Of a DNA stretch of 64,000 bases, positions 27,344 through 45,678 are shown piece after piece. The stretch covers positions 186,001 through 250,000 of the forward strand of contig JARLIY010000132.1 in NCBI GenBank assembly GCA_031291475.1, written 5' to 3'. Numbering within the stretch: the first letter of the stretch is position 1; every line of letters starts with the position of its first letter. Source of the DNA: Xanthobacteraceae bacterium. GTDB taxonomy: Bacteria > Pseudomonadota > Alphaproteobacteria > Rhizobiales > Xanthobacteraceae. The notes under the pieces were generated by a model, which saw nothing but the letters and a program-made list of their open reading frames with translations, made no database searches and had not been told where the DNA came from. The position numbers were made by a program, and so were the translations under genes.

Positions 27344-27361
27344 CAGCGCGAGCGTAGCATG

Positions 27362-28949: not shown

Positions 28950-29714
28950 TCAAAATCCATGTCGGGCGCGATGGGCGGCGAGGTTCGCACGGTGCGCGTC
29001 GCGCAAGCCACCGAGCGCGGGCGCGGCGTCGATGGCGAGCGCCTGGCGTGCGGCGGCACTTAGCGATGAGCTGGCGCGCGAGGTGCCGTCGTCGGCAAAA
29101 CTGACCAGGCCACAATCAAATGCCGCGTCCCATAATGCCGAGAGCAGGAGGCCATTGTGAACGTTGAGACGTTGCTCATCGTTGCAGTCAGCCCATGGCA
29201 CGATGTGCGAGGCGCGCAGGAGCGCTGGCTCGGTGATGCCCGTGAGCGGACAACGGCCGCCCCAATAGTCCATGAGGGCGTCGCGGAACAGATTCTGACC
29301 GATGCGTGGTACGACGAGGCGTTCGGCCTCAGTTGTTCGCGGCAGCTTCGCGGTTTCAGCGCGAAAACGCAGGAGCGGCGCGTCCGGCAAACTCATAGCG
29401 AGTTTGTAAACGCGATCGAGGGCGGCATGGAGTTGGGTCAGCGTCTCGTAGATGAAGGTGGCCGTGCCAGGACCGGGAACGGTTGATGCTATGGCAGCGC
29501 CAATCTCCGCAACGACGCCGGGATGGTCGATCGAGAGCAGCCAGGGGCCGCGTTGCGAAGCGCCAGCGACCCACACCGAGCCGGGTGCTGTCGTAGACGC
29601 ATAGTGCAGCCAGCTCCCTTCCACACCGCGGTCAAGCCGGAACCCATTGTCCCAAGCTGCCTTCTGCGCTTCCGTTCGCACGACAAACCCGGGAGGGTTC
29701 TCCAGCGCGATCAT
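28950..29714 (-). CDS. HNH endonuclease (HNH_2 type), last gene of the DISARM-like operon
   Basis: 254 residues. The C-terminal half is an HNH_2 nuclease: RIGQNLFRDALMDYWGGRCPLTGI, LLRASHIVPWADC (first His), RLNVHNGLLLSALWDAAFDCGLVSF (Asn-Gly-Leu-Leu-Leu and the Asp-x-x-Phe-Asp motif). The N-terminal ~110 residues are an uncharacterised domain. The ATG overlaps the methylase stop (ATGA), so it is coupled. Likely the DNA-cutting partner of the methylase, occupying the place where DISARM has its PLD nuclease; that is inference. Confidence 0.88.
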   Translation of the reverse strand: MIALENPPGFVVRTEAQKAAWDNGFRLDRGVEGSWLHYASTTAPGSVWVAGASQRGPWLLSIDHPGVVAEIGAAIASTVPGPGTATFIYETLTQLHAALDRVYKLAMSLPDAPLLRFRAETAKLPRTTEAERLVVPRIGQNLFRDALMDYWGGRCPLTGITEPALLRASHIVPWADCNDEQRLNVHNGLLLSALWDAAFDCGLVSFADDGTSRASSSLSAAARQALAIDAAPALGGLRDAHRANLAAHRARHGF

Positions 29715-32700
29715 TCGGCGGCAATGGGCTGGCTTGAGAGCTGGTCGTAGGCGGCGAGCACGAGGCGAGCCGTCCGATACTCACCGAAGCGCGCAATTTC
29801 ATTCTTCTTCAGCACCCGGAAGGTCTCGGAGGGGTAATCCGGTCCCTTCGCGTCAGCGGGATCGAGTATGTAGCGCAGCTCATCGCGCGTGAGGCCGTAG
29901 GCGCGCGCGTACCAGGCATCGAGTTCGGCGCGCAGTTGTACGCGGCGGTCCTCGTCCCAGGCAAAGGGCGAGCCGTTGTAACCGAGATCGCGCGCGAATG
30001 GCGCCATGGAATGGCTCGTGTAGGTAAGTTCGAGCACGCGCGGGACGATGAAGGCGAGGTTGGATTGGTCGTAGGCGGAGGGCGGAAGGAGAGGAAACTG
30101 GAACAAAATAAAGAAATTGAGCGTCGTGCCGCCGATCTTCTGTCGCGCGCAATAGTCTAATACTAGCGAAGACAAGCAGCCAATCAACGCCGCTGAATAA
30201 TGCGGGGAAACTGACTGCGCGGGAAACATAAGCGGAATTTTGTTTCCCACACTCAGTCGCGGGAAAGCGGCGGCAATCACCGTCCGCTCGTTTGTCGCGT
30301 TAGTTATATCCCGCCAGCCCATCAGCCAGCCTCGCGACCAGCCTTTCGAGGCGAGGCGGTCGGCGACCTCGCGCTCGGGAACCCAATAACGCGGCGAGGG
30401 CTCGAAGGAAGTATTACGCTTCTCCTCCTCCGTTGCCCCGCGACTGGCGTCATCCCCCGTCGCGCCCGCATCATAGGTCGCCCAGCGATGATCAAAATGG
30501 TGGATCATCTTGGCTTCATAGAGCGGCACATACCGTTCAGAACGGCGGCCCGGTGTCCCTCCATGCAGTGTCAGGCTTCGGTCGTCATGACCGCCCGCAA
30601 GAGCCAACGCAGCCTGTCGCGGAGCTGTGCCTTGCGGCATCGTCCAATCGCCACCTTCGTAGATAAAGCCCGCTTCGCGCAGCTGCGCGGCGGTGCGGAA
30701 GAGACCGCTGTCGTTCGACATGTGTAACATTGTCATAAACGACACGCCCCACGGATTGCCGGCCACGCCTTTCCCCTCGTCGATTAACACTGGGACGCGA
30801 GCATAAATTTTGGCAGTCAGGTCCGCGTCAGCGGAAGTACGGAAAATCGGCGCGGTGATCGTATTTGGGTTTATGAGGGCAATGGCAGCCCGAGAGAGAA
30901 CGAAATGACGCCGACGATCCTGGAACTCTTCCATCGTTCGGGAGAAGAAGCTAAAGGCCGGCGTCTCAGGCCCAGCGCCCTTGCTCCCGACCGTCAAGAG
31001 AGAGAATTTGAATCGAGCATGTCCGATCCGGTCGAAATAGCCCATGCCAGTCTGGAAATCGTGTAAACTAAAAAGTCGCCTCTCTTCGAGCAAAGCCCCA
31101 AAGTACGACGCTGTCGTCGCATCAGTAGCGATACCGGTCGGCACAATTACGCCAGCGCGGGCCCGCGAGCCTGCAAGAGTCGCGAACAGTTCGGCGAACA
31201 GCGCATAAGTGTTGACGTCGCCACGTCCAGTGAGCGGAAAGCGGCCACCGTTCTCAGCCGCAATGCGAGCAAATACCGACGATGCCTCAGCCGTGTGTTT
31301 GGCAGCCTCGAACTCATCATAAAGCGCTCGCTCTCGCGTGCCCGCCGCGGCTTCCTTGAGTCTTGCTATCAACCGGCCACGCGCCGCTGCGTTCGGCGCT
31401 TCTGCGATCTCACGATCCCGGGAAGCGAAGAACTCCTGTTCTAGCAGCTTGATTCTTTCCCATGGCGGATTCCCGAGCACCACATCAAACCCTCCGGCCG
31501 CTATCACGTCGGGAAATTCTAGCGGCCAGTGGAAGGCGCGCGCCGTCCCAACTAGGTCCTGCGCGCGACCGACCAGTGGGCCGTATAGCGTGCGGCCGGC
31601 AAGCGCATCGAACACATGCGCCGTGGTCGGGATCGCCACGATATTGCGGTTCGCCGGAACGCCCCCGGTCTTCGGCGACAGGAATGCCGCAATGTAGAGA
31701 TCCGCTGCGATGCGCAGATTCCAGCGCAGCGGGTCGGCACGGGTGGCTTCGAACTGCTTGCGCTTCGCTGCAATTTCTTCGGGGCTGTCTTCCGGCATCG
31801 CTCGCAGCGCCCGTGCCTCGCCCGCCATCGGCACGACGGGCGGCAAACGCCCGCTGCCGGCGGCGAAGTCGAGGTTGCCCTGACCTTCGCGCTCGGCCTT
31901 GTTGCGCTTGCCGAAATGTTTCGCCGTCTCTTTGTCGTCGCCCGAAAGGGGCCTGTACGCGGCATCAGGGATACCCTGTTCCAACGCTTTTAGGTTGAAG
32001 AGGCCAAAGAGCGAGTCGCCGCAGCGGATATTGGCATCGAAGAAGCCGAGTGGTTTGCCTGGCTCGACCGTCTCGATCCACAGAGCGACCTTGGTGAGTT
32101 CGACCGCCATCGGGTTTCGGTCGACGCCATGAATGCAGGCCCGCGCAATATCGCGCAACGCATGGCGGTAGTCGACCGGCGATGCGACGCCGCCGGTGCG
32201 CGCGCGCGCGAGTCGTGTTGCGATGCGTCGCGCGGCGGCCAACAGGAAATGTCCGGAGCCGCAAGCGGGATCGAGAACTGTTACCGACAAAAGCGCCGCG
32301 GCCGGGTCATCGGCCTCCGCTTCGATGCGGTCGAGCACCGGGTCGAGCGCGCTATCGAGCAGCGCCTGTACGAGACTATCGGGCGTGTAATAGCTGCCGC
32401 TTATCTTGCGGGCGTGGCCCTTTGCTTCGCCGCCTTCAGCAAAAGCGAAACCGCGCCCATCGTCGGTCAGTTGCGGGGTGAGTTCCAACAGGCTTTCGTA
32501 GACCGAACCCAGTTCCTCGGTTTCCATGTCGCGCCAATTCACCGGCACGAGACCCGAATGCTCCTTCAGCCAGGCGAGGCGGTAGATCGCCTCCATAAGG
32601 CTACGATTGGCGAGCTTGGCCGTCTCCAAATCCGGCACCGACCCTTGTGCGAAAAGCCCATCGAGCGCCGGCAGTCCTAGCCGCGACTCGCCGCGAGCAA

Positions 32701-33772
32701 GCCCACCGAAAGTAATAAGCAATCCTTCCCAGCGATCGTGGTGCCGATCCCAGGCGGCGCGCCGCACGGCGCGGTCTCGCAACGCGCCCACGGAATAGCC
32801 TTCGGTATAGAGCTTCCGTGCCGTTGCCGACGCATCCGGCACATGTAGTAGATTTCGATCCTCTGCGGCGAGGAGGAAGATGAGCCGGTAAACGAGGCGG
32901 AGAAGCTGTCCGAAGAAATCAGGCAGCGGCAGTGTCCCGGTACGCAGCCGATCACGCACGGCGGCATTTTCGGAATGCGAGAGAAACCCGTTGCCCAAGC
33001 TCAGCAGTGCCGCCTCGACGCCGTCGCGCAAACGATCGCGTGCAGCGAGCCCTTCGCGCTGCCCCGCTTCGCGCCAGTGTTCCAACGCGCAATCTGATGG
33101 CGGCGAGCCGACGAGGCCGAAACGGCTGGAATGGATCAGCAGCCACAGCACCGCGAAATCCGCGAAGGCTTCGCCCTCGAAAATGCGGCGCAAGTCGGCC
33201 TCGATATAGGCGGGACGCGTGAGGCTGGCATTGCCGCGCACTAGGCGAAGGAGGCTTCCGTTCAAGCAAAGGCCCCAGAGAGCGCCTTCACCGGCATTGA
33301 GCCGGTCCTGAACAGCCGATGCGGCGGAACGCCGGCGGCCATCTGCCAGCAGATGACTGCTCGGATGATCGAGATCGTCGGTCAGCGGCACGACTACGAT
33401 CGGTACGCGCCCGTCGAGACCCTCAAGCGTCACCGCAAACTGCCGCTCGTCGTTGGCATGGGAGCCGACGTAGCGCACGTCAGCGAAGCCGAAGACGCCG
33501 CGCAGGAGTTTCTCGACGAAGGCAACCGTCGCGGCGTGAGACGGGGTTTTGCTTGCGGTCAACTCGGAAAAGAGCGCCTGGCCGATACGGAAATAGCGCG
33601 CGATCTCCTCGCGCAGGGAGAGGCCCTTCGGTACGGCGTAGTCCGCCTCAGATTGTGCGCCGGCCCGATGCTGCGCGATGCGGGTGAGCATCGCGGGCGC
33701 AATCAGCGCGCCTTCGACCGTGACGGCATCGAAGGCGAGCGTGGTCGTGTGGCGGGTCCGGTTGCGCGCCAT
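29711..33772 (-). CDS. Eco57I/PglX-type N6-adenine DNA methyltransferase (DrmMI-like)
   Basis: 1,353 residues. A long helical N-terminal region (~1-480) comes before the SAM motif I VLDPACGSGHFLLAAARRIA (~515). The catalytic motif IV is VVLGNPPWERIKLLEQEFF (NPPW), followed by a large target-recognition part with GMGYFDRIGHARFKFSLLTVG and FEPSPRYWVPEREVADRL. Related to PglX of BREX and DrmMI of DISARM; it presumably marks host DNA. The frame is open much further upstream but there only mirrors the SNF2 gene; the ATG at 33,772 lies 7 bp after the SNF2 stop. Confidence 0.92.
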   Translation of the reverse strand: MARNRTRHTTTLAFDAVTVEGALIAPAMLTRIAQHRAGAQSEADYAVPKGLSLREEIARYFRIGQALFSELTASKTPSHAATVAFVEKLLRGVFGFADVRYVGSHANDERQFAVTLEGLDGRVPIVVVPLTDDLDHPSSHLLADGRRRSAASAVQDRLNAGEGALWGLCLNGSLLRLVRGNASLTRPAYIEADLRRIFEGEAFADFAVLWLLIHSSRFGLVGSPPSDCALEHWREAGQREGLAARDRLRDGVEAALLSLGNGFLSHSENAAVRDRLRTGTLPLPDFFGQLLRLVYRLIFLLAAEDRNLLHVPDASATARKLYTEGYSVGALRDRAVRRAAWDRHHDRWEGLLITFGGLARGESRLGLPALDGLFAQGSVPDLETAKLANRSLMEAIYRLAWLKEHSGLVPVNWRDMETEELGSVYESLLELTPQLTDDGRGFAFAEGGEAKGHARKISGSYYTPDSLVQALLDSALDPVLDRIEAEADDPAAALLSVTVLDPACGSGHFLLAAARRIATRLARARTGGVASPVDYRHALRDIARACIHGVDRNPMAVELTKVALWIETVEPGKPLGFFDANIRCGDSLFGLFNLKALEQGIPDAAYRPLSGDDKETAKHFGKRNKAEREGQGNLDFAAGSGRLPPVVPMAGEARALRAMPEDSPEEIAAKRKQFEATRADPLRWNLRIAADLYIAAFLSPKTGGVPANRNIVAIPTTAHVFDALAGRTLYGPLVGRAQDLVGTARAFHWPLEFPDVIAAGGFDVVLGNPPWERIKLLEQEFFASRDREIAEAPNAAARGRLIARLKEAAAGTRERALYDEFEAAKHTAEASSVFARIAAENGGRFPLTGRGDVNTYALFAELFATLAGSRARAGVIVPTGIATDATTASYFGALLEERRLFSLHDFQTGMGYFDRIGHARFKFSLLTVGSKGAGPETPAFSFFSRTMEEFQDRRRHFVLSRAAIALINPNTITAPIFRTSADADLTAKIYARVPVLIDEGKGVAGNPWGVSFMTMLHMSNDSGLFRTAAQLREAGFIYEGGDWTMPQGTAPRQAALALAGGHDDRSLTLHGGTPGRRSERYVPLYEAKMIHHFDHRWATYDAGATGDDASRGATEEEKRNTSFEPSPRYWVPEREVADRLASKGWSRGWLMGWRDITNATNERTVIAAAFPRLSVGNKIPLMFPAQSVSPHYSAALIGCLSSLVLDYCARQKIGGTTLNFFILFQFPLLPPSAYDQSNLAFIVPRVLELTYTSHSMAPFARDLGYNGSPFAWDEDRRVQLRAELDAWYARAYGLTRDELRYILDPADAKGPDYPSETFRVLKKNEIARFGEYRTARLVLAAYDQLSSQPIAAE

Positions 33773-33779
33773 GTATGGG

Positions 33780-36539
33780 TCAGACTCCGGCGGGGACCAG
33801 GACGTATAGGCCAATGATGTCCGGGGGCAGAACCGGCTCGACGGTGACGCGGGCGCTACCGGAAGCAGCGGCGCGCACTCGGGCGTGATCCTCGGCCAAT
33901 GCACGCGCACGCTCGCGAGCATGAGCGGCAATCGATGCTTCGAGCGCGGCTCCGATTCGCTCGATCGCTCCCTGCAGCAAACGCTGGCGCGCGACAGAAG
34001 CAAGATCGCCACTCGCAGAGTGTTCGAGCAAAGCTCGCACTTCGTTGTCCATAAACACTGGTTCGATCGAGGCTGGCTGCCATGCGAGTGCGGCGGCTTC
34101 CTCCGCCAGCAGCAGGCGCTCCTGCTTGCCGCGGACAGTAAGCTTAAAGCGTAGCCGCAACAGAGCGACGGTAGTCGCGACCTTGACTGCGCCTGTCGGC
34201 CAAGCACCAGCACGTCCCAGGGATGGAACCGGGCTGGCGCCGGGATCGAGCGCGCCTTCGAGCAAAGTCTCAGCGAGAATCGCGGGTAGCGGATGGCTGC
34301 GTCCGACCATCTCCGTTCCGGCCGGCGGCGGCTCCTCGAAAGCGAGGCGCACGGTGCCATCCAATCCGCGCGCCGCAAGCCGCTCCGCCACCGCGGTCGG
34401 CAACGCGGCAAGATGTGCGCGCACGGTGACCCCTTTGTGCATCTCCAACGGCGCATTGAGACGGCTCATGGCGCGGTCCACAAAGCGATGCACCTGATCG
34501 GGGCTCCCCAGTAACTCGCGCCAGCGCTGCCATTCCGGGATCACCTCTTCCGGCTTAAGCGTGTTCTGTGCGAAGCGCGCGCGCGAGCGGCGCTCGCCTT
34601 CCTCGGCATCACGCCAACACGTTTCCATAATGGCGGCGTCGGCGCCCAATCCGAAATCGAGGCTGAGCTGCTGTGAGCGGCCCTTGCGGAGAAGGACGGC
34701 GTTCATAAGCGCGCCGGTGACGGCGCCCCGCTCGTCCGGAAGCGGAACGGTCACGCCGGTTGCCTTCCTTATTGCTTCGGCCTTGCGGAGGATCACGTCC
34801 AGGACAGCGCCATCGATCGCGCTGTCCGGCGAGAAGAGCAGCACAGAGCGCACGAGCGCGCATGGCTGGCCGAACCGATCGACGCGACCCTCACGCTGCT
34901 GGTGCCGGGTCGGGTTCCAGGACAGATCGTAATGGATCACCATATCGAACAGGTTCTGCAGGTTGATGCCTTCCGACAAGCAGTCGGTTGCGACCAGGAG
35001 CCGCTGGTTAGCATCGGCCATTGCATCAACGCGCGCGCGGCGTTCGTCCGGCGGAAGATCGCCGGTTACGGTCTCGATGCGCAGCTTCGGAAACGCCTTG
35101 CGGAGGCCGACCGCGACATGATCGGCTGTGGCGATGAACCGGCAGAACACCACCGGGTTGGCCCCTTCGGCAACGAGGGGCTTGAGCACCTTTACCGCGG
35201 CGTCGAGCTTTGGGTCGGGGGCTGTGGCAAGGTGCTCAGCTTGCTTCACAAGCGCGGAAAGCAGATCGCGCTCGTCGAGCCCGGATGCAGGCTCGACATC
35301 GACCGCGTCCGCCTCATCGGCATCGTCATCGAACACTTGCTCTTCGAGCCGGTCGGGATCGGCAGCGAGACGGTTGCGCAACGCGCTCGCGGCGGCCGGG
35401 GGCGATGAGCCGACGCAGCGCATCAAAGCGAGTGTGCCCCAGAATGCGAGCCGACGCCGGCGCTGGTCGGGGCCGGCGCCCTCGACGACGCCGAGACAGT
35501 AATCAAGCACGGCATCGTGGAAGGATCGTTGGTCAGAAGAGAACTTGTAGGAACGCTCGGTGGTTTCATGGCGCGGGAACACGCGGTCCTCGCCCCACTC
35601 CCGTGCAATGATGTCGATGCGGCGACGCTGGACGTAGTGCCGGGCCAGCCGAGCGCGCCCGGCGTCACTGTCGAGCGTGCCGGCGGCAAACTCCACATCG
35701 ATCAGGCTTAGCAGCCGCTCGAATGCCGCCTCGTCACCACTGTGAGGCGTGGCAGTGAGGAGCACGAGATGCCGCTCGCGATCGTGCGCAAGGCGTTTCA
35801 ACAGCTCGAAACGCTGTTGCCGGCTTTGATGCGTGCCGACGCAGGCATGAGCCTCGTCGACGACGACCAGTGCCGGGCAGGCCCGCGCGAAGCTTTCGCG
35901 GCGACGATCAGCTTTGATGTAGTCGAGACTAACGACCGTGTATGGATAGGCGTCGAATAGGGTCTGCGAAGCCGCCAGATCGCGCTCCAGGCGAGATGCC
36001 GAGGTTGCAGTGATTGAAACAGCATCCAGGTCGAACTTCAATTTCAGCTCGCCCGTCCATTGCTCGACGAGATGCGGCGGGCAAAGGACCGCGAAACGAT
36101 CCGCCTCACCGCGATCGATCAGCTCGCGCAAGATGAGACCACCTTCAATTGTCTTGCCGATACCGACGTCGTCGGCGATGAGCAGTCGGACGACGGGAAG
36201 CCGCAGCGCCATCAGTAGCGGCACCAGCTGATAGGCGCGCGGCTCGAAGCCCAACCGCGCGGCGGACCGGAACGGCCCCGCCCCGCGCCGGAGCGACAGC
36301 CGCAATGCGTCGGACAAAAGACGCGCGCCTTCCTGGGTGGCGATCTCCTCTGTCTTGGGCGCCGAGAAACGTGCAGGCCGCACCGGTTCGCGTTCGAGTG
36401 CGGGATAAATGACCTGCACGTCGGCTTCGGTGCCCGAGAGGGGCCTGAGGCACAGGGTCTCCTCATCCGACGAAGGAAGCGCCACCCATTCCCGCCCCCG
36501 CGCAAAAACTAGATCGCCAGGGGTGAACGTTGCAGTCAC
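33780..36539 (-). CDS. SNF2-family helicase/translocase (DrmD-like)
   Basis: 919 residues, GTG start overlapping the stop of the upstream helicase (GTGA). Helicase motifs in order: Q-like YQLVPLLMAL, motif I LLIADDVGIGKTIEGGLI, Ia LCPPHLVEQW, II VVVDEAHACVG (DEAH), III LLTATPHSGD, then the C-terminal RecA lobe with NPVVFCRFIATADHVA, LLVATDCLSEGINLQ and QREGRVDRFGQ. The arrangement is RapA/DrmD-like. A helical C-terminal third follows. Probably translocates on DNA in the defence complex. Confidence 0.93.
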   Translation of the reverse strand: MTATFTPGDLVFARGREWVALPSSDEETLCLRPLSGTEADVQVIYPALEREPVRPARFSAPKTEEIATQEGARLLSDALRLSLRRGAGPFRSAARLGFEPRAYQLVPLLMALRLPVVRLLIADDVGIGKTIEGGLILRELIDRGEADRFAVLCPPHLVEQWTGELKLKFDLDAVSITATSASRLERDLAASQTLFDAYPYTVVSLDYIKADRRRESFARACPALVVVDEAHACVGTHQSRQQRFELLKRLAHDRERHLVLLTATPHSGDEAAFERLLSLIDVEFAAGTLDSDAGRARLARHYVQRRRIDIIAREWGEDRVFPRHETTERSYKFSSDQRSFHDAVLDYCLGVVEGAGPDQRRRRLAFWGTLALMRCVGSSPPAAASALRNRLAADPDRLEEQVFDDDADEADAVDVEPASGLDERDLLSALVKQAEHLATAPDPKLDAAVKVLKPLVAEGANPVVFCRFIATADHVAVGLRKAFPKLRIETVTGDLPPDERRARVDAMADANQRLLVATDCLSEGINLQNLFDMVIHYDLSWNPTRHQQREGRVDRFGQPCALVRSVLLFSPDSAIDGAVLDVILRKAEAIRKATGVTVPLPDERGAVTGALMNAVLLRKGRSQQLSLDFGLGADAAIMETCWRDAEEGERRSRARFAQNTLKPEEVIPEWQRWRELLGSPDQVHRFVDRAMSRLNAPLEMHKGVTVRAHLAALPTAVAERLAARGLDGTVRLAFEEPPPAGTEMVGRSHPLPAILAETLLEGALDPGASPVPSLGRAGAWPTGAVKVATTVALLRLRFKLTVRGKQERLLLAEEAAALAWQPASIEPVFMDNEVRALLEHSASGDLASVARQRLLQGAIERIGAALEASIAAHARERARALAEDHARVRAAASGSARVTVEPVLPPDIIGLYVLVPAGV

Positions 36540-39500
36540 GAGCTTTGTCCCAAGAGGTCAACGAGTTGCGGCGGCGGTGCATCGCCGGGGACTTCCGGAA
36601 GAATCGCGACAGCGAAGCCGAGCGCCTCGGCCGCTTCGCGCGCCTTATCGTCCACCGATCCGACCGCCGCTGCGGCTAAGCGCGTGCGCCAGGCGAGCGG
36701 CAGCGTTATTCCGTCGAGGCTTAGCGGCGCTGCGTCGGGGCTCGGAAGCCCCCAACGCGCCAGCGCGGCGCGCCAGTCGCCGTTTTGTTCAGTATCGGAT
36801 TGCGGGATTGCCGCAGCAACGCGACCCCGCGCTAGGCGCAGTAGAATAGTTTTCACCTCTCGATCGGTACGGTCGATCAATTCGTGATCCGGCTGGTTGT
36901 AGTAGGATAGTAAACAGCGATAGCAGCCGTTGACGCAGCGGGCATCGGGAACCTCGGTCAGGGCATCCGCAGCTGCCTCGGCCCTGGCGGCGTCAATGTT
37001 GTCAAAGTGCATAAGCTTCAGCGCCGCTTGCGCGACTTGCGAGAGCGCCGACGCATCGCTCGTCAGTCGACCCAGCACTCCAGCGCCGCCTTCGGTGGCC
37101 TCGAACAGAAGAATGCCGCGCCGCCGGTCGCGAGCCGGAACTGGCTCAGTCAGGATTTCACCCTCTTCGAGCTGGAAGACCACTTCGAGCCCGCGCGCCA
37201 GCGCGTGCTGGAGGGTGGCCATTGATGTTTCCGACTGCGCCGGCCCGGGCAATTGGAGCAACAGGGCGTTCTTGTTGTCCTGGACGATCGGGACGACCCG
37301 TTGCGTTGCTGGTCTGTCGGGCTCGTCGTCCCCTTCCTCTTTGCTGCCGGTCCAGCGACCGGTGGTGGGATCGATGACAAAACCGAAAATGCTCTTGTCC
37401 TTGCGCCGCCGCAGGCCCTTATTGAGCCGGCTGATAGTCGCGCCGGGCGCGTAGGCAAGGGACAAGATCGGGCCGTCGGCATCGCCGGCGACGCTTGCAG
37501 AGAAATCGATCTTGCCGTCGCGCCAGGGCCAAGCAAAAACCGTCTGAATATCGAAGCCCTGCCGCTGTCGATCCTCGTCATTCGCCGTGATCCGTTCGGC
37601 CGGCAGCGTCTCCACATTGTCGATGCGCAACACATTGCGAATGGGATGAATGCCGCCCATGGGGGCGTGGCAAACGTGGCAACGCTCAGGCTCCATGCGC
37701 TGATGCGCGGCGCCACACTCGTCACATATATAAAAAATGTCGGTAGCAAGCCGATCGCCTTCTTCCGCTCGAATGTTGGGTGGCAGCTTGGCCTTGTAGA
37801 CCCGATATGCGCGGCCCTCGTGATAGATCAGGCTGCGCGGTCCGAACTCGGCGATGGCAATGAAACGCGCGCGTTGCAAATAGGCTGCTTTCGGTCCGCC
37901 GCCGCCGACTGCCGGCACATACGCGTAGAGAGGAAGCCGTGGGAAATTGTAGCCGGGCAGAAAGCCCTCGGTCGCAAGGTAGCGATAAGTGGAAAAATCC
38001 GATCCTCCGGTCGCCGTTCCCCGTTCGAGCAAGGCGATCTGCTCGTTAGCTTGTGCTTGCTGACGCTTGGCCTCTCTGCGCTCAGCAGCGGAGAGGCCGT
38101 GCATTTCCGAGCGACGATTCGCGTCCATCAGCTGTGTTCGGGCGCCGTCATAGAGCTGACGCCAACGGCCGAATGCGTTCGAAAACTCCGAGGCGGCCTT
38201 GGTCGCAATAGCATCCGCGAATTTCTGTCGATCGGTTGCCCAAGGCGCCCCCGCAGGCGTGAGCTCGGCATCGATACTGTCGAGGATGCGGCGCATCGAT
38301 TGCGCCGACCCGGCGGCCAACTTCGCATCTGCAAAGACTTCGGCAATGTCTTTCTGTACCGGCAAACCCGGATTGGTGAGATCGAGGATATGCGGAATAT
38401 CCGATGCCAGCTCCCTTGCGGAATCGGCAAGCCAGACCGCGTGGAGATGGGCTACGACGAGGTCACGGTTCGCGAGCTCAAGCGCTGGCGGCCGCACTAT
38501 GCCTCTTACCATCGCCTCGGGTTGTCCGAAATAATATTGGTCCTGTGGACTTTGCGCGGCGCAATAGGTCACAACCAATGCGGCCTGACCGGACCGCCCC
38601 GCGCGCCCGGAACGTTGCGCGTAGTTAGCCGGGGTCGGCGGCATGTTGCGCATGTAGACGGCATTGAGCGCCGAGATATCGACGCCCAGTTCCATGGTCG
38701 GCGAACAGAACAAAACAGGAAGAAAGACGTTGGGCTCGCCGACGAGGCGCAGCTGTTCTTTAGCTTCGGCGAGATGGTTTCGATCCTCGTCACCCCAGCG
38801 GAATCGCCACTCGCGCCACTCGCGTCTAATCGGATCGACTTGCGCGGTGTGCTCGCGGCTTTCGAGCCCGAACAGTCCTTCGCCTCCGCTCGCAAGTGTG
38901 TCGGCGAGGGTGCGGTAGAGTTCCGCGAAATACGGGTTGGCGGCTCGCCCATCGGGGCGGCCTTCGCCGACGACGAGACGTACAGCATTGGCGGCAAGAC
39001 GCCAGCCTTCAACATCGAAGGCAGTCGGTACCTGCCTCACCAGTTGGTACTGGGCGGCAGCCGCGAGAAGCGCTGTGATCACCTCGCGATAAGTATTGCC
39101 ATCGAGCCGACTGCCCCAGATGCTTCCGTGTCCGAGCCGGCGAGCCAGGAGGCTGCGCGAGCCGCCGCGCACGATCAGTGGTTCGCCGCGCAGCCCCGTC
39201 TCTTCGCGCCTCGGCGCGTCGATAATGAGGGCTGCGGCAACTCGCGGGCTCTCCTGCTGCGAAATGGACCAGGGCTCGCGCAAGCTCTGACGCGAAGCGT
39301 TCGCGAGCGCTTCGACGTTGGTGGGTTCGAGCGCATCTGTTGTGATTGCCAGACCGTGACGGAGATGGTCCAGTAGGATTTGCAGCGCGTCGCGGCGCGT
39401 CGCAGGGTCTGCGCTGCGCAACTCAGACGGAGCATTTGCGAACGCGCTATCGTCGGCGGCAAGCTCGTTGAGAGCGACATAATCGGCACGGACCAAGCCC

Positions 39501-41719
39501 AATTCTTCGAGATTCGGATTGGTAAAGCGCCACCCCCGGCGCTGATCCACCCACGCGCGGTGCGCGAGCACGCGGGCGAGCGTGCGCTCCGCCTCGACCT
39601 GGCCAACTCCCTTAAGCTCAGGGTCGACCATCCACTCCTGCCGCCGGCCGCGATTGGCGGCGATGAAGCCCAGGGCCCTTTGCAACTGTCGACCAAATTC
39701 ATCCTCGGACAGACCATCCGGTCCAGCCGCGCGAATAGCGGCGAGCGTCGCGGCGCGCAGCAGCGCGACGAACAGAAAGTCATTGAAGTGGCCGGCCTGG
39801 AGCGCAGCATCCTGTCGATTGTCGGTGAAGCCGAGCAGCTTGCGCCGATCGGGCGGCAGCGCCGCGCCGATCTTGTTCATCCAACGGAGCGCGCTCGATA
39901 CGAGTAGCGTGGTAGCCGAGCTACGGCCTTCGGCTGACAGGCTCGCAAGTTTATTGATCTCACGTGCTTGTGCTGCCGGCTGATGGCCGCACGCTGGGCA
40001 CAAACGAAACTTGCCCGGCAGGAACCAAGCTCGACGTCCGGTAGTCCCAACCGTCCCGGCTGCGTCGACCGTGAGCTCTTGCGCGGCATAGGGACGCCGA
40101 TCCGCGCGAAGCCGAATGGTTCCGTTGCGCGCCGCTTCAACCCATTCTTCGGGATAATCCTCCGGCGCTCCAGTAAACGAGAAAATTGCGTCGTTGTCTG
40201 GCTCCGGCATCAAGTAGCCCGGTTTCTCGCCCGAGTCGGGATCGTCGAGCGGCGTTTCATCGATATCGCGCGGCAAGACGCGCCGCCCTCCGCCCTCCTC
40301 CACGAGGACAACGGGGTGGTGCTCCTGTCCGCAATTGCGGCAGAAGAACGTGGCATAGAGCCTAGCGTCAGGATCGTCTGGGTCGAAAAGCTGGCCGTCG
40401 AGGGTAATCAGCCTATGGGGTGTTGTGCGGAGCGTCGCATAGACGCGGCCGGCGCCCGAGAGAAATCGGTGCAGCTTAAACGCCATGAAAGCGCGATCGC
40501 CGTTGCCACCGCGTTCGTTCGCTGGCCGGTTCATGAGAATCAACATGGCCTGAAGCTGTGATCGGCAGCGCGCTTCGTCTCGCCCTGTCTGCTTCGCGAG
40601 GCGCTCAGCGGCTTCCTTTATCGTGGTTGGGGTGCGGCGCGACAGCCGTTGCCTATCTTCGAGGCCGATCTCAAGCTCGATCCAGATCGCGAGCGGGTGA
40701 ATGCGCAAGGCGTCGTCGTCGAGCGAATCCGGCACGTCGGCATCGACGGCGGCCACAAGGCGTTGGCCGAGCTTCGTCGACGTGAGCGAAGGGTCAGTAG
40801 CTCGTGCAAGCGATTCGTCGATCACGCCATCCGGAGCGATCGTCGTTCCGAAAAGACGCGATGCAACGCTGGCCATCGCGGCCGCGCGAACGGCGTCGCT
40901 GCCCTCGCTCGCCATAGTCGCCGAGGTTCCAATGCAGATCGGTTCGCGATCGCGACAGAGGCGGTCGCGCACGCGGCGCACCAACATCGCAACATCGGCG
41001 CCCTGGCGCCCCCGATAGGTGTGAAGCTCGTCGAGCACGAGAAAATCGAGGCCGTGCGCGTTGTCCATGACAGCACGATCAAGCGCGTTCTGCCGGGTCA
41101 TCAGCAATTCGAGCATCATGAAATTCGTGAGCAGGATGTCCGGCTTGGCCTGACGGATACGCTCCCGTTCGTCCGCGCTCTCTTGGCCGGTATAACGCGC
41201 ATAGGTTGGACGCAGCTGGTTCGATAATTCGGACTGATCGATGAATTTCTCAAGCTCCTTCATCTGACTGTTGGCGAGTGCATTCATCGGATAAATAATG
41301 ATGGCGCGCGTTCGAGCCGCGTCTCCAGCGACGCGTGCCCGAATCGCTGCGTCAATGATCGGCACGAAGAAGCAGAGCGACTTGCCAGAGCCCGTTCCCG
41401 TCGTCACCGCAAAACTTTGTCGCCGGGTGGCCCTTGCGATCGCTTGGGTTTGGTGGCGATGAAACCTGATCGGCTGCCCGTCGACACGGAATACGCGCGC
41501 CGTATCGGGGTGCAACGAACCGTCGGCCGCTAAATCCGCGACCGATGCCCCGCGCTCGAAATTCGGGTTGATGCTAATGAGCGGCTCGGGCCAGAAACGG
41601 TTTGTCGCATAGATTTTTTCGACCTGCGAACGAATGTCGAGCGCCCGAATCTGCGTGAAAGAACGAGCAAAGCGCTCGTAGTCGCTTACGACGGCGCGAT
41701 CCAGGTCGAATACGTTCAT
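36536..41719 (-). CDS. DEAD/DEAH helicase with C-terminal DUF1998 (MrfA-like; possible DrmA-DrmB fusion)
   Basis: 1,727 residues. Walker A VTTGTGSGKSLCFFVP (~110), NMLANSQMKE-like Ia, motif II VLDELHTYRGRQGADVAM (DELH), SATMAS, and in lobe 2 FCSPTMELGVDISALNAVYMRN and [14 protein letters not shown]. Zn-ribbon pairs occur at CRNCG, CPACG and CDECG...CHVCH. The C-terminal DUF1998/MrfA cysteine cluster is CVNGCYRCLLSYYNQPDHELIDR. In DISARM the helicase (DrmA) and DUF1998 protein (DrmB) are separate; here both features are in one chain. I start at 41,719 (MNVFDLD); the frame is open 51 bp more. Confidence 0.9.
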   Translation of the reverse strand: MNVFDLDRAVVSDYERFARSFTQIRALDIRSQVEKIYATNRFWPEPLISINPNFERGASVADLAADGSLHPDTARVFRVDGQPIRFHRHQTQAIARATRRQSFAVTTGTGSGKSLCFFVPIIDAAIRARVAGDAARTRAIIIYPMNALANSQMKELEKFIDQSELSNQLRPTYARYTGQESADERERIRQAKPDILLTNFMMLELLMTRQNALDRAVMDNAHGLDFLVLDELHTYRGRQGADVAMLVRRVRDRLCRDREPICIGTSATMASEGSDAVRAAAMASVASRLFGTTIAPDGVIDESLARATDPSLTSTKLGQRLVAAVDADVPDSLDDDALRIHPLAIWIELEIGLEDRQRLSRRTPTTIKEAAERLAKQTGRDEARCRSQLQAMLILMNRPANERGGNGDRAFMAFKLHRFLSGAGRVYATLRTTPHRLITLDGQLFDPDDPDARLYATFFCRNCGQEHHPVVLVEEGGGRRVLPRDIDETPLDDPDSGEKPGYLMPEPDNDAIFSFTGAPEDYPEEWVEAARNGTIRLRADRRPYAAQELTVDAAGTVGTTGRRAWFLPGKFRLCPACGHQPAAQAREINKLASLSAEGRSSATTLLVSSALRWMNKIGAALPPDRRKLLGFTDNRQDAALQAGHFNDFLFVALLRAATLAAIRAAGPDGLSEDEFGRQLQRALGFIAANRGRRQEWMVDPELKGVGQVEAERTLARVLAHRAWVDQRRGWRFTNPNLEELGLVRADYVALNELAADDSAFANAPSELRSADPATRRDALQILLDHLRHGLAITTDALEPTNVEALANASRQSLREPWSISQQESPRVAAALIIDAPRREETGLRGEPLIVRGGSRSLLARRLGHGSIWGSRLDGNTYREVITALLAAAAQYQLVRQVPTAFDVEGWRLAANAVRLVVGEGRPDGRAANPYFAELYRTLADTLASGGEGLFGLESREHTAQVDPIRREWREWRFRWGDEDRNHLAEAKEQLRLVGEPNVFLPVLFCSPTMELGVDISALNAVYMRNMPPTPANYAQRSGRAGRSGQAALVVTYCAAQSPQDQYYFGQPEAMVRGIVRPPALELANRDLVVAHLHAVWLADSARELASDIPHILDLTNPGLPVQKDIAEVFADAKLAAGSAQSMRRILDSIDAELTPAGAPWATDRQKFADAIATKAASEFSNAFGRWRQLYDGARTQLMDANRRSEMHGLSAAERREAKRQQAQANEQIALLERGTATGGSDFSTYRYLATEGFLPGYNFPRLPLYAYVPAVGGGGPKAAYLQRARFIAIAEFGPRSLIYHEGRAYRVYKAKLPPNIRAEEGDRLATDIFYICDECGAAHQRMEPERCHVCHAPMGGIHPIRNVLRIDNVETLPAERITANDEDRQRQGFDIQTVFAWPWRDGKIDFSASVAGDADGPILSLAYAPGATISRLNKGLRRRKDKSIFGFVIDPTTGRWTGSKEEGDDEPDRPATQRVVPIVQDNKNALLLQLPGPAQSETSMATLQHALARGLEVVFQLEEGEILTEPVPARDRRRGILLFEATEGGAGVLGRLTSDASALSQVAQAALKLMHFDNIDAARAEAAADALTEVPDARCVNGCYRCLLSYYNQPDHELIDRTDREVKTILLRLARGRVAAAIPQSDTEQNGDWRAALARWGLPSPDAAPLSLDGITLPLAWRTRLAAAAVGSVDDKAREAAEALGFAVAILPEVPGDAPPPQLVDLLGQSS

Positions 41720-41812
41720 GGCAAACTTCCCGACCAAGCACGCATATCTTGATGCTACATGGTCAAACAACTAACCGCAAAGCGGAAGATGAATTCTTGC
41801 ACGGACGGCGGG

Positions 41813-42577
41813 CTACCCTAATCCTTCCTCGGGAACGGTGAGTACCGTAAGAACCTCGTCGTTCGGAAGTGGAAACGACTGCTCGAGCACCTCGTACCTG
41901 TCAACATTGCGAAACTCGAACCACGCGCCGGCTCCATTTTTGCGGGGAAAAGTATCTTCGCCGTTGCCAGCATGCAAAATTCCAAATGCGAAGGAGTCCG
42001 CGTCTAGGTCTTCGCGGGGAAACCACCAATCAGGCACCATTTGTGCGCGCCTGAACCAGCGTCGCTTATTTTTCCCATGACATACGAGAAGGATAGGGAA
42101 GCGATCCTCGTTCAATATCTTGATAAGTGTTGCTGTCGTACTTGTGTTAAATTCGTTGGCGACGTCGCGGACAAACGCAAGCGTTAGCTTCTTCAGCTTG
42201 TTAATGTAAGGACGAATTAAGTAACTCGGTAGGATGAGGTCAGAAGCGAAAGCGTCTGCTTGGCGCTCCGGATCAAGCGGTCCGCCGGCAAGATTGCCAA
42301 TGTCAGACGCGCCGCAAAAGAGAATTTGCCCGCGATGATGGTGCCAATGGCCCAGCTCATGTGCGAGGGAGAAGCGGCGCCGGGCCGGACTTGTCGAAGT
42401 ATTGACGGCGATCACGGCGTGCGTAAGCGAGCCAATTATCGTCGCATCGGCATTGTCTATATGCCGATACTTAACGAGCGCTCCGACGTGCCAGGCGATC
42501 GCGTCAAGATCAATTTCATTTGGCTGAGAAATGCCGAGGCTCATTAACAAGCGCTCGGCCGCCGTAACGCCGCTCAT
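41813..42577 (-). CDS. ImmA/IrrE-family metallo-endopeptidase
   Basis: 254 residues. The zinc-protease motif RRRFSLAHELGHWHHHRG (HExxH) is near residue 72, and the third ligand region PERQADAFASDLILPSYLI follows. Members of this family cleave or inactivate repressors of mobile elements (ImmA/ImmR, IrrE/DdrO). Its ATG overlaps the preceding gene by four bases (ATGA), and the helicase starts 93 bp further on. It may be the switch that relieves repression of the operon on infection; that is inference. Confidence 0.92.
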   Translation of the reverse strand: MSGVTAAERLLMSLGISQPNEIDLDAIAWHVGALVKYRHIDNADATIIGSLTHAVIAVNTSTSPARRRFSLAHELGHWHHHRGQILFCGASDIGNLAGGPLDPERQADAFASDLILPSYLIRPYINKLKKLTLAFVRDVANEFNTSTTATLIKILNEDRFPILLVCHGKNKRRWFRRAQMVPDWWFPREDLDADSFAFGILHAGNGEDTFPRKNGAGAWFEFRNVDRYEVLEQSFPLPNDEVLTVLTVPEEGLG

Positions 42578-42987
42578 TCCGGGTCGCCCTCACCATCAAG
42601 TCGCTTGAGGTCAGCCCAATCGTCGATTAGCCCTTCAACATCTGTGTCGGTCGGAGCTTTACCCTTTCGTGCAGCTATTAGCATCTTCCGATTCAAGTCT
42701 GGATCCCCGCGCCGAAGCTGCTCGAATTCCGCGCGCGAAAATGATCGGCCGATAGCAACGACACGGGTTGATAGGGACACGGACCACGCCTCGTGTTCTG
42801 CCTTCGCCTTGGAAAGTGCACGCTTCGCGAGGTCTGCCTTAGCTTCGATCAGCATTGTTCGCACGCGGGCAATGCGTTCTTGATCGACCTCGGCAAGTAT
42901 TTCGTCATCGGGCGTCGCCAAGATATCCTGCATGAAGGCCTCCGCAAGCCGCTCAAGCTTGATCCGGTCATCATGGTCCCGGCTCAT
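42574..42987 (-). CDS. helical protein of unknown function, between sigma-like and ImmA/IrrE genes
   Basis: 137 residues, acidic and mostly helical: ERLAEAFMQDILATPDDEILAEVDQERIARVRTMLIEAKADLAKRALSKAKAEHEAW, then FSRAEFEQLRRGDPDLNRKMLIAARKGKAPTDTDVEGLIDDWADL. No family recognised. The ATGA overlaps on both sides place it firmly in the operon. As the protein next to an ImmA-like protease it may be the protease substrate (a repressor or anti-sigma); that is a guess from context. Confidence 0.8.
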   Translation of the reverse strand: MSRDHDDRIKLERLAEAFMQDILATPDDEILAEVDQERIARVRTMLIEAKADLAKRALSKAKAEHEAWSVSLSTRVVAIGRSFSRAEFEQLRRGDPDLNRKMLIAARKGKAPTDTDVEGLIDDWADLKRLDGEGDPE

Positions 42988-43571
42988 GATGCAATCCTCG
43001 TTTTTAGTCCTAACAGCAGGCGCGAGAATCTCTTGCGCACTGCGGCCAGGCCTTTCTCATCAACGTCGAGTAGCTGTTGGAGTTCGGCGCCACGCATTTT
43101 GTCGTAAATACCCTCGATCAGGAGCTGTACTTTTTCGTCACCAACGGCGGCGGTCTCGATCGTGGTCAAGGTCGCCCTATGGTCGATGGCTGAGATGGCA
43201 GCCCGCTCCGGCGACGGATTGCCCGTCGGAGCGTCTGGGAGGATCGGCTCGCCATTGCGAAGCACAGTGGTCGGTCGCAAGCCCTTTTTGCGCGCCTCGA
43301 TCTCTTCAGATACGAGGCTCTTCATCACGCCGCAAATGAAGGACACCAGCGGCACGCCGCGTTTGCAGGTTCGTTCACCTTCGAGTGTGCGCGTAATGGC
43401 TTCTTGGAGCAGGTCGTCCGCCTCGACGCCGCGAATACGAGAGAAGCCCTGAGCGGCCTTTTCGAGCCGAGCCATATCGGCCTCGGAGATTGTCTCGATA
43501 GAATCGTGCATTTCGGCGACCGTTAGCCGGTCGCCGGCTGGTATTCCCGTGTCGTCGCCCTCTGCCCTCAT
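42984..43571 (-). CDS. sigma-70-like RNA polymerase factor, first gene of the operon
   Basis: 195 residues from the ATG at 43,571. The region 2-like segment FSRIRGVEADDLLQEAITRTLEGERTCKRGVPLVSFICGVMKSLVSEEIEARKKG matches the sigma-70 region 2 layout (DLLQEA...FxxGVMKS). The C-terminal QLLIEGIYDKMRGAELQQLLDVDEKGLAAVRKRFSRLL is a divergent region 4-like HTH. The frame stays open through the inverted repeat to 43,664, which argues against using that start. ATG 43,598 directly abuts the repeat; AGGAGG lies 15 bases before 43,571, so the start is unsettled. Confidence 0.75.
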   Translation of the reverse strand: MRAEGDDTGIPAGDRLTVAEMHDSIETISEADMARLEKAAQGFSRIRGVEADDLLQEAITRTLEGERTCKRGVPLVSFICGVMKSLVSEEIEARKKGLRPTTVLRNGEPILPDAPTGNPSPERAAISAIDHRATLTTIETAAVGDEKVQLLIEGIYDKMRGAELQQLLDVDEKGLAAVRKRFSRLLLGLKTRIAS

Positions 43572-43598
43572 GGTGCGTTGGCGCCGCCTCCTACTCAT

Positions 43599-43666
43599 AC
43601 ATGCGGACGGCCACGGATATTCGGACACAAAAATTTCTGTCCGAATCCCGCGGCTGGACCGCATGT
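43599..43666. promoter_or_regulatory. nested inverted repeat in the divergent promoter of the two defence operons
   Basis: The outer arms ACATGCGG (43,599-43,606) and CCGCATGT (43,659-43,666) enclose the inner arms ATTCGGACA (43,619-43,627) and TGTCCGAAT (43,638-43,646). A 10-base AT-rich centre CAAAAATTTC separates the inner arms. The inner arms are perfect; further partial matches lie between. The element is between the sigma-like gene (minus) and DUF3892 (plus) and looks like a two-dimer operator, or a large hairpin in the RNA of either operon. Confidence 0.7.
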
Positions 43667-43741
43667 ACTGTTAGGACCCCGGCGATGCCATTTCCGGCCG
43701 CCTGTGGAAGTCGATTCGTAGCATAGCACAGGAGGCCCGGC

Positions 43742-44008
43742 ATGGCCGACGTACAGGTGACCTGCATCAACAAACAGCCGCGGAACAACCCGCACGAGGG
43801 CATTACGCATCTGGGCGGCGCGACGTGGAAGTGGACGCGGCAGCAGGTGATCGATTCGATCAACGTCGGCTCGAACACGTTCTACACGCTGGTCAACGCC
43901 ATGCGGGCCAACGTCGGCGTCGTTGATGGCCCGAATGGCCAATATGTTCGGACCCACGCCGACGGCTACTGGAACGACAACCTGCTCGCCCTGCCTGAGT
44001 GCGGGTGA
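43742..44008 (+). CDS. DUF3892 domain protein
   Basis: 88 residues. The whole protein matches the DUF3892 pattern: VQVTCINKQPRNNPHEGITHLGG, WKWTRQQVIDSINVGSNTFYTLV, VGVVDGPNGQYVRTHADGYWNDNLLALPEC. AGGAGG lies seven bases before the ATG. DUF3892 proteins are widespread small proteins of unknown function. Here it opens the ubiquitin-like operon, 49 bp ahead of the multiubiquitin gene. Confidence 0.92.
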   Translation: MADVQVTCINKQPRNNPHEGITHLGGATWKWTRQQVIDSINVGSNTFYTLVNAMRANVGVVDGPNGQYVRTHADGYWNDNLLALPECG

Positions 44009-44057
44009 TCAGCGGGCACGTGGTATAATCGAGATTACAGCAGGAGGAACAAATAAT

Positions 44058-44516
44058 ATGGCAGGAGAACATAAAGTTCGTCTGCACATTGATGAACGCG
44101 AGTGCCACTCGCCGAACCCGACAACGGGCGCGGCGCTGTATGAACTCGGCGGCGTTCGCGCCGGCTACGAGCTCTACCGCGAGGTATCCGGCGATCGGGA
44201 AGATGTGCCGGTCGCAAATGATGCAGCGCCAGTGCATCTCAAGGAGGACGAACACTTCCACAGCTCGGAGCGCAGACCGAAAGAATACAGGATCATCGTC
44301 AATGGCACCGAGCACACGGTGACGAACGACGTGGTTACATTCGATCAGCTGACCGAGATCGCCTTCCCCGGCCACCCGAACAATCCGGACATTGTCTTCT
44401 CTGTCACATTCGACAGGGCGGCGAGCAAGCCGCACCACGGTACTCTGGCTAAGGATGGGACCGTGACGGTCAAGAACGGCACGATCTTCGATGTCACACA
44501 AACTAATCGATCTTAA
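44058..44516 (+). CDS. two-domain multiubiquitin protein (ubiquitin-like modifier)
   Basis: 152 residues, GGAGG before the ATG. Two tandem beta-grasp units of the Multiubiquitin family: KVRLHIDERECHSPNPTTGAALYELGGVRAGYELYREV...VHLKEDEHF (~5-65), and EYRIIVNGTEHTVTNDVVTFDQLTEIAFPG...FSVTFDRA...GTLAKDGTVTVKNGTIFDVT (~75-147). The C-terminus is TNRS with no terminal di-glycine, so either it is processed or the tail chemistry differs from ubiquitin. Overlaps the E1-like gene by 26 bases, hence coupled. Confidence 0.9.
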   Translation: MAGEHKVRLHIDERECHSPNPTTGAALYELGGVRAGYELYREVSGDREDVPVANDAAPVHLKEDEHFHSSERRPKEYRIIVNGTEHTVTNDVVTFDQLTEIAFPGHPNNPDIVFSVTFDRAASKPHHGTLAKDGTVTVKNGTIFDVTQTNRS

Positions 44517-45678
44517 CGATGATCTGCGTCGACTGCGCGATGAAGGCTTCAACGTTGACATCGATGCTGGCCATCTGATCGTCAGGGACATTCCGTATGT
44601 GACGGATGCGCGGCTGATCCGCCGCGGCACGCTCGCTACCAGTCTCACTCTGAACGGCGATCACACGATTCGTCCGTCTGACCATACAATCAAATTCACG
44701 GGCGAATATCCGTGCGCGAGCTCCGGGGAGCCGATTGTCGGGATCAGGCACGGAAACGCCGTGTCGAAGATAAGCGAACGAATTACCACGCAACGTTCAT
44801 TCTCGAGCAAGCCAACGCGTGGCTACTACGAAAATTACTACGAGAAGATAAAGACGTACGTGGCCATTTTGTCCGGGCCGGCGGCGGTCATGGACCCGAA
44901 CATAACCGCGCAGACCTACGAGGTCGTCGAGCCGCACGACGAGAACACGCCATTCGCCTACATCGATACTGCATCGGCGCGGGCCGACATCAACATGGCG
45001 ACCAATAAACTTGCGGTCGAGAAGTTGGCGATTGTCGGTTTGGGAGGTTCTGGGTCGTACGTTCTAGACTTGCTGGCGAAAACTCCCGCGAAGGAAATAC
45101 ACCTTTGGGACGGCGACAAGCTATCGTCGCACAATGCCTTCCGGGCGCCTGGCGCGGCGTCGAAGGACGAACTGCACAAGCAGCCGCTTAAGGTCGATTA
45201 CTTCAAGGAAATATACTCGCACATGCACTTGGGCATTGTTGCTCATGGAGAATATGCGACCGCAAGTAATATCGAGCAGCTCCGGGGGATAGCGTGCGTG
45301 TTCCTGTGCCTCGACTCCGGCGCAGCGAAGAGATTGATCGTCGAAAAGCTGGAAGAGTTCGGTGTTCTGTTCATCGACGTTGGGATGGGATTGTACGTCA
45401 AGAACGACACCGTCGGCGGGATCCTGCGAGTAACCGCAAGTGATCCCGCCGACCGCGCCACAGCTCGGGCGCGTATCTCATTCGCCGAGAGTGAAGGGAT
45501 CGACGAATACGATAAGAATATCCAGATTGCCGATCTCAATGCACTGAACGCGACATTAGCCGTCATTCGGTGGAAGAAGATGCGCGGCTTCTACTTCGAC
45601 TTCATGCAGGAGCGCTTTAGCAGCTATACGATCGGCCGTAACATGCTTTTAAGCGAAGATGTTTATGAGCCGCATTGA
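44491..45678 (+). CDS. ThiF/E1-like adenylyltransferase with N-terminal E2-like (DUF6791-type) region
   Basis: 395 residues. The N-terminal ~150 residues (LIDLNDDLRRLRDEGFNVDIDAGHLIVRDIPYVT...) form the domain that typically precedes ThiF in bacterial multiubiquitin operons (DUF6791 as I recall it). The E1 Rossmann domain starts at LAIVGLGGSGSYVLDLLAKTP (~181-195). It continues with the adenylation-site region LWDGDKLSSHNAFRAPGA, FLCLDSGAAKRLI and VLFIDVGMGLYV. Should activate the C-terminus of the multiubiquitin protein with ATP. No separate E2 gene is seen. Confidence 0.88.
   Translation: MSHKLIDLNDDLRRLRDEGFNVDIDAGHLIVRDIPYVTDARLIRRGTLATSLTLNGDHTIRPSDHTIKFTGEYPCASSGEPIVGIRHGNAVSKISERITTQRSFSSKPTRGYYENYYEKIKTYVAILSGPAAVMDPNITAQTYEVVEPHDENTPFAYIDTASARADINMATNKLAVEKLAIVGLGGSGSYVLDLLAKTPAKEIHLWDGDKLSSHNAFRAPGAASKDELHKQPLKVDYFKEIYSHMHLGIVAHGEYATASNIEQLRGIACVFLCLDSGAAKRLIVEKLEEFGVLFIDVGMGLYVKNDTVGGILRVTASDPADRATARARISFAESEGIDEYDKNIQIADLNALNATLAVIRWKKMRGFYFDFMQERFSSYTIGRNMLLSEDVYEPH

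Follow-up and report, generated by a model that had tools for sequence, protein, structure and literature searches.

An ARMADA-type variant with a conserved HNH nuclease gene beside a putative sigma factor and CapP-like protease controller cassette in a Xanthobacteraceae bacterium

The window, a stretch of 64,000 nucleotides from a Xanthobacteraceae bacterium (GenBank assembly GCA_031291475.1, contig JARLIY010000132.1, positions 186,001 to 250,000), carries seven consecutive minus-strand open reading frames (ORFs) at 28950-43571 that probably make up two antiviral modules, adjacent but separable. Module A (28950-41719) is an ARMADA-type system with a helicase carrying a DUF1998 zinc region, an SNF2 helicase, an adenine methylase and an HNH nuclease. 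Module B (41813-43571) encodes an ECF-like sigma factor, a small helical protein and a CapP-like M78 protease, and is by its sequence a putative controller cassette. The seven genes, with the domains given to them in a preliminary description of the region, were all recovered in the ORF list, the Pfam and PADLOC searches and the motifs. Four of the junctions between them are 4-base overlaps and the SNF2/methylase junction is a gap of 7 bases; the 93 bases that separate the CapP-like gene from the helicase gene are the sole wide gap and the boundary between the two modules.

The preliminary description had treated the seven genes as one system with the first three as its induction switch. Comparison with relatives does not sustain the single system. 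Forty loci with a related helicase were collected with gene calls (further loci were added later), and homologues of the sigma factor, the helical protein and the CapP-like protease were found in none of them, 34 having at least 2 kb of upstream sequence (phmmer, E up to 1e-3). The helicase sample consists of 6 of 6 genome-contig loci, 23 of the 24 other genomes with a match (all but G743), 16 of 67 plasmid records and all 12 of the viral loci inspected. The front genes do look like an induction switch, and they probably stand outside ARMADA because none of the 34 helicase loci carries them and because elsewhere they are divergent from other immune operons.

The trio is complete in 17 of 17 loci, the window included, and in three more (L118, which is the same place as L064, as well as L065 and L066), which makes 19 of 19 loci examined other than the window. 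Eighteen of these were found through the CapP-like protein and L118 through the helical protein, and the result therefore shows that this CapP subfamily has both partners, not that every such sigma factor does. The sample comprises 12 of 29 plasmid CapP matches, 4 of 4 matches in other genomes and the two strong matches among 41 viral loci tested. Among the 19 trio loci with an upstream view (window included), ten are divergent from known kinds of immune operon: a CBASS cyclase in L048, L052 and L058, a Pycsar cyclase with TIR effector in L049 and L061, a multiubiquitin-ThiF operon in L054, L056, L066 and the window, and a Bil-like Ubl/JAB/ThiF operon in L118. The divergent plus-strand operon of the window begins with a DUF3892 protein (43742..44008; Pfam DUF3892, 58 bits), followed by a multiubiquitin protein whose true start is probably internal (43923..44516; Multi_ubiq, 67 bits), an E1-like DUF6791-ThiF protein (44491..45678; DUF6791, 180 bits, and ThiF, 42 bits) and a DUF6527 protein (45659..46084; 89 bits).

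Several observations weigh against so regular an association. No recognised immune system is present on eight of the 19 divergent sides or in the ThiF/patatin operon of L047, the trio sample covers 12 of the 29 plasmid CapP matches, and nine plasmid records (H70 and H75-H82; eight from Bradyrhizobium and one from Microvirga) have a match to the sigma factor and none to CapP. The sigma homologues on these records may exist with other partners. The profile of the helical protein matched in at least 2 of 372 genomes, its own included, a figure that says little on frequency because at most 10 candidates were scored per genome. A short ORF starting with YAINYDL or YSINYDL recurs opposite the sigma gene in L055, L060 and L062, where the L062 copy matched no Pfam family, and similar coding-like sequence lies upstream of the sigma gene in L051, L052 and L059.

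It is conceivable, albeit doubtful, that the seven genes form one operon in this particular genome, the cassette having been captured as an induction switch for ARMADA while still driving the divergent operon. The two modules share a strand, no terminator-like site was found in the 93-base gap, and a weak sigma half-site (of the kind defined below) is located inside the gap at 41807 on the minus strand, where about 0.02 would be expected by chance (16 sites per 64 kb on that strand). In L047, genes for an AAA ATPase and an ATP-dependent helicase likewise lie on the same strand, 1.5 kb past the cassette; this pair recalls Gabija, for which we take it to be a candidate only. Transcripts of the cassette may run on into ARMADA here, which counts against a clean separation. 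However, the arrangement is seen in none of the 34 helicase loci whose upstream view reaches 2 kb or more, the strong promoter pair faces the sigma gene and the divergent operon, and the boundary of the cassette is the only wide gap.

The first gene of module A encodes a YprA/Druantia-like DEAD/H helicase of 1727 residues, ArmC-like, with a fused DUF1998 zinc region (36536..41719, minus strand, start taken at the ATG at 41719). Its Pfam matches are DEAD, Helicase_C and MZB, the last being the MrfA Zn-binding domain, which we presume to be equivalent to DUF1998. Helicase and DUF1998 region thus form one chain, as the preliminary description had proposed. The motifs TTGTGSGKS and DELH are found at residues 106 and 230, and the PADLOC score is 270 bits for DruE versus 49 bits for DrmA. 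The second gene (33780..36539, minus strand) was assigned from PADLOC and NCBIfam to an SNF2/RapA-like helicase of 919 residues, ArmA-like, with the motifs GIGKT and DEAH. The best PADLOC match of this protein is the DpdE model PDLC02853 (642 bits, residues 1-917), and NCBIfam DrmD matches at 300 bits, under the cut-off of 610. The third gene (29711..33772, minus strand) encodes a PglX/DrmMI-like N6-adenine methylase of 1353 residues, ArmB-like, with matches to Pfam Eco57I (53 bits) and PADLOC DrmMI (224 bits) and the motifs DPACGSGHF at residue 501 and NPPW at residue 768. An alternative start at 34456 was rejected for the methylase since it gives an overlap of about 0.7 kb with the SNF2 gene; the ATG at 33772 comes after the SNF2 stop.

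ARMADA Type I is set out in sections of a preprint as a YprA/Druantia-like helicase, then a BrxHII/RapA-like helicase, then a PglX-like methylase (PMC12458937, Bell et al. 2025). The window has a helicase, a BrxHII-like protein and a PglX-like methylase in this order, and its helicase is Druantia-like (DruE gives the top PADLOC matches) with a fused DUF1998 region (Pfam MZB). Judged by these similarities the core is the published ARMADA Type I core and not DISARM; the helicase tree used here is our own. The preliminary description could not name the combination as an established system, which does not hold for the three core genes given those sections of the preprint (PMC12458937). It had also called the locus DISARM-like; a relationship to DISARM stands, but the core is ARMADA Type I and the helicase is nearer to Druantia. 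The methylase stands before the helicase in the relatives L011, L012, L117 and L126. As in Type I, no GajB-like gene is found among the seven. The window differs from Type I in that the C-terminal Vsr nuclease of the helicase is without its active-site loop and in that a conserved HNH gene is added; in the main text of the preprint the word HNH occurs in the reference list only. Anti-phage activity is reported in the same source for an ARMADA Type II cluster.

Membership of three related systems was considered and rejected. DISARM class 1 has relatives here of its SNF2 protein (DrmD-like) and its methylase (DrmMI-like), but DrmA and DrmB are not separate genes, Pfam shows no PLD family (DrmC) among the seven proteins, the NCBIfam DrmD match is below its cut-off and the helicase is nearer to DruE. 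Druantia does not apply because the helicase has an SNF2 protein and a methylase as partners, not Dru genes; no Dru partner was found for the other six genes among the PADLOC matches listed (best 25 of 56 for the methylase and best 25 of 48 for the SNF2 protein). ARMADA Type II (ArmD, RelE-GajB-like) does not fit since the gene after the methylase encodes an HNH protein, and the ORF list of the window has no helicase-sized minus-strand ORF within 25799-28950. Among the relatives, the methylase is spread over two main ORFs, separated by about 0.7 kb, in the related genomes of L024, L026 and L027; candidate explanations are an insertion, an intein-like element or a separate subunit. In L115, a Nocardioides plasmid, DISARM drmA and drmB precede an ARMADA core with an intact loop by a few kb, and an AAA ATPase gene and a McrC family gene come after this core.

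The branch of ARMADA to which the window belongs has apparently exchanged the helicase-borne nuclease for a separate HNH protein. Alignments show two states of the helicase tail, either D-G-P-H-H or similar at the Vsr/DUF559 position or a deletion of this stretch with the flanks kept. The tail in the window (36536..36925, minus strand) is of the second, degenerate kind, without the D-G-x-x-H loop. All four intact tails scanned score above cut-off for DUF559, and of three degenerate tails, among them that of the window, none does. A C-terminal Vsr nuclease predicted to be active is described for ARMADA in parts of the preprint, where it is not a naming criterion (PMC12458937); in the window the loop is deleted and no Pfam family matches. 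A PDB profile search with the helicase C-terminus gave one match, an entry named a-iTHR-201, which was taken as chance.

The HNH_2 nuclease of 254 residues is encoded by the last gene of the module (28950..29714, minus strand; Pfam HNH_2, 41 bits); no domain was assigned to its first ~120 residues. The motif ASHIVPW can be read in the protein, and RASHxxPW and an NGLLL region are conserved across 15 aligned homologues. A profile search against PDB finds the HNH endonuclease 6yex (E 2e-30), which we take to be VcaM4I, a modification-dependent EVE-HNH enzyme. When loci with a downstream view are compared, 25 of 26 degenerate ones (window included) have an HNH homologue after the methylase versus none of 13 intact loci (Fisher p 1.7e-9), and the same contrast is seen in clusters at 60% identity (10 of 10 versus 0 of 6, p 1.2e-4). 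These p-values overstate independence because the degenerate state has one or two origins. In the 13 intact loci the HNH family profile had no match at E up to 10 within the 1.5-14 kb that follow the methylase, or the helicase in loci where this is the terminal gene. Set aside in this count were loci where the contig ends first (L004, L005 and L008, degenerate; L029 and L030, intact) and those where the tail is partial, missing, not extracted or remote (L013, L019, L037, L117, L125-L128 and L130-L135). L137, L138 and L142, with a methylase before the HNH gene and no helicase in view, were not counted either, and the tree and the cluster counts leave out L006, L018, L124 and L129.

The preliminary description had the HNH protein replace the PLD protein of DISARM. 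The HNH protein does fill a nuclease slot, but what was lost is the Vsr-like nuclease domain of the helicase itself and not a DISARM PLD. In the proposed division of labour, the methylase would protect host DNA, the two helicases would load on phage DNA that lacks protection and travel along it, and in place of the lost helicase domain the HNH protein would cut this DNA in trans.

Certain points tell against an exchange of nucleases. The tail states were assigned by eye from the alignments. The downstream view is short in the intact loci L124 (1.5 kb) and L040 (2.0 kb), which matters because the HNH gene can stand 2 kb past the methylase. The degenerate locus L035 has IS21 at the place of the HNH gene, and its plasmid lacks an HNH altogether. 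In a tree computed with the tail removed, two changes to the degenerate state are required, but a single degenerate clade is not rejected (approximately unbiased test, p 0.51), so that there may be one origin or two. It is worth considering that the HNH gene is a passenger, or a separate type IV-like restriction gene tied to ARMADA by descent, the tail being structural only and no nuclease having been exchanged. The few origins agree with this, as does the profile match to 6yex if that is VcaM4I. So does the distance of about 1.8-2.1 kb between methylase and HNH gene in nine loci, with an SMC-annotated gene in between in two. The explanation is nevertheless unlikely, in that 25 of the 26 degenerate loci, spread over Alphaproteobacteria, Acidobacteriota, Acidithiobacillia and Campylobacterota, have kept the HNH gene, which overlaps the methylase gene by 4 bases in seven loci, the window included. 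The gapped loci are L031 and L038 and, by gap size, L003, L014, L017, L018, L021, L022 and L039. The SMC-annotated gene fills the gap in both annotated cases, L031 and L038, and is a possible extra component.

Module B begins with an ECF-like sigma factor of 195 residues (42984..43571, minus strand). The start was taken at 43571; a start at 43664 was rejected because it lies upstream of most of the promoter-like element described below. The protein matches Pfam Sigma70_r2 at E 0.005, which is below cut-off, and 5 of the 17 members of the sigma family match it at E 0.01 or lower. A PDB search with the single sequence gave no sigma match, and a profile of the 17 members matched ECF sigma structures best (SigH, E 9e-4). 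The third protein (41813..42577, minus strand) is a CapP-like M78 (ImmA/IrrE) zinc protease of 254 residues with the motif HELGH at residue 73. Its homology to CapP is supported by a PADLOC capP score of 202 bits and by the family profile, which finds CapP 7t5t at E 6e-20 and also IrrE 3dte in PDB. Activation by single-stranded DNA (ssDNA) would follow from this likeness to CapP.

Between these two lies the gene for the small helical protein of 137 residues (42574..42987, minus strand), defined by its trio homologues and here proposed to be an anti-sigma factor and the substrate of the protease. In the window the sigma gene is followed by this gene with a 4-base overlap, an arrangement that pairs of sigma and anti-sigma genes often show. 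Both roles are putative. An AAR motif at residues 105-107, in which A105 and R107 are invariant, is a candidate for the site of cleavage. No Pfam family matched the window protein and no helix-turn-helix family was found, Pfam searches over 17 members giving two stray single-member matches. The profile gave weak matches in PDB, one of them the regulator SkgA (E 0.02), and a model from three sequences is all-helical at low confidence (mean predicted local distance difference test score, pLDDT, 61).

A bidirectional promoter-like element was found by motif scan at 43598..43667 between the sigma gene and the divergent operon, on both strands. The minus-strand half has its -35 at 43627-43621 and its -10 at 43604-43598, and the plus-strand half has them at 43638-43644 and 43661-43667. 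A half-site was defined as TGTCCG, with up to one mismatch, followed after 16 or 17 bases by G[CT][ACT]T, and control windows were drawn from the same loci. Back-to-back halves occur in 15 of 19 divergent regions (11 exact) versus 27 of 11,224 control windows (9 exact). For the 33 exact TGTCCG sites, the second element is matched 26 times at spacings 16 and 17 versus 10 times over 23 other spacings. The -10 tetramer is identical between the two halves of a locus in 14 of the 15 loci (permutation p 1e-4), and the spacing agrees in 13 (p 0.006). The distance between the halves varies from 1 to 29; this variation fits two promoters and would be difficult to reconcile with a single operator for a dimer. 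Because the motif was derived from the very sequences in which it was counted, the counts describe and do not prove. Exceptions that speak against a uniform element are L047 and L118, with another -35 (TTTCTGA for TGTCCGA, by eye), L054 and L066, which fail the back-to-back test, and L058, which needs two mismatches. The string TGTCCGA-N15/18-GCATG occurs six times in the window's own genome and two of these are the pair in the window. The four others, on contigs C65, C98, C140 and C162, are possible further targets.

By analogy, the trio is most likely a controller built of sigma factor, anti-sigma factor and ssDNA-activated protease, with a logic like that of CRISPR Calp. The small helical protein would hold the sigma factor inactive, and ssDNA from phage infection or DNA damage would activate the CapP-like protease, which would then cleave the helical protein. 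The freed sigma factor would then start transcription both from its own promoter and of the immune operon opposite, which here is the DUF3892-multiubiquitin-ThiF-DUF6527 operon. In CRISPR Calp, as outlined in parts of PMC12751052, CalpL cleaves the anti-sigma factor CalpT and frees the sigma factor CalpS. The logic is alike, with a putative anti-sigma role for the helical protein here, but the Calp protease is of the Lon-SAVED type while that of the window is M78/IrrE-like, and the trio is not bound to CRISPR but paired with several kinds of operon.

CapH+CapP resembles the trio in having a CapP-like M78 protease next to immune operons, and CapK+CapS and CapW are likewise cassettes responsive to DNA damage beside diverse immune operons, according to portions of PMC13373217. 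These act through repressors (CapK+CapS is a kinase with a STAS repressor and CapW a WYL repressor in the same portions), whereas the trio has a sigma factor. No CapH-like helix-turn-helix gene was recognised in the trio, and the ECF-like sigma factor and the helical protein stand in its place. Titles and the beginnings of abstracts among the literature matches listed contain no description of a sigma/CapP-like cassette, and this front end may be a more novel part of the locus than the ARMADA variant.

The symmetric element might instead be the operator of a dimeric repressor, either the sigma-like or the helical protein, with derepression as in CapH+CapP and a sigma-like protein that is no working sigma factor. 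The inverted repeats and the Pfam match under cut-off would suit this, as would the fact that CapH, the known partner of CapP, is a repressor (portions of PMC13373217). It is improbable, however, in view of the concentration of spacings within halves at 16 and 17 against a between-half distance of 1-29, the best match of the 17-member profile to ECF sigma structures, and the lack of a recognised family for the helical protein. The sigma factor reading is therefore kept. Taken together with the HNH branch it forms a composite proposal to which we give slightly better than an even chance: that the trio represents a new class of DNA-damage controller that acts positively, with an ssDNA-activated M78 protease destroying an anti-sigma factor so that the sigma factor can fire a bidirectional promoter, that sigma factor and promoter co-evolve as an exchangeable plug-in, and that the adjacent ARMADA branch has moved its nuclease to an HNH protein.

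Further genes of the same island lie on the minus strand. At 47888-51617 lie genes for a DUF3732 protein and for one carrying the CTD7 domain of ABC-three-component systems, likely another defence operon. An SRAP (SOS-associated peptidase) gene is found at 52336-53022 and a gene for a protein with a Tle1-like phospholipase domain at 24189-25490.

The case shows that neighbours in a defence island need comparison with relatives before being named one system. Since one branch of ARMADA keeps the helicase-borne nuclease and the HNH branch has apparently replaced it, the two form a natural experiment on the role of this nuclease. Where CapW, CapH+CapP and CapK+CapS act via repressors (portions of PMC13373217), a dedicated sigma factor would be an activator-type alternative. 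If this is true, a single kind of sigma controller would be common to chemically unrelated immune systems, and its promoter signature would be searchable in other genomes.

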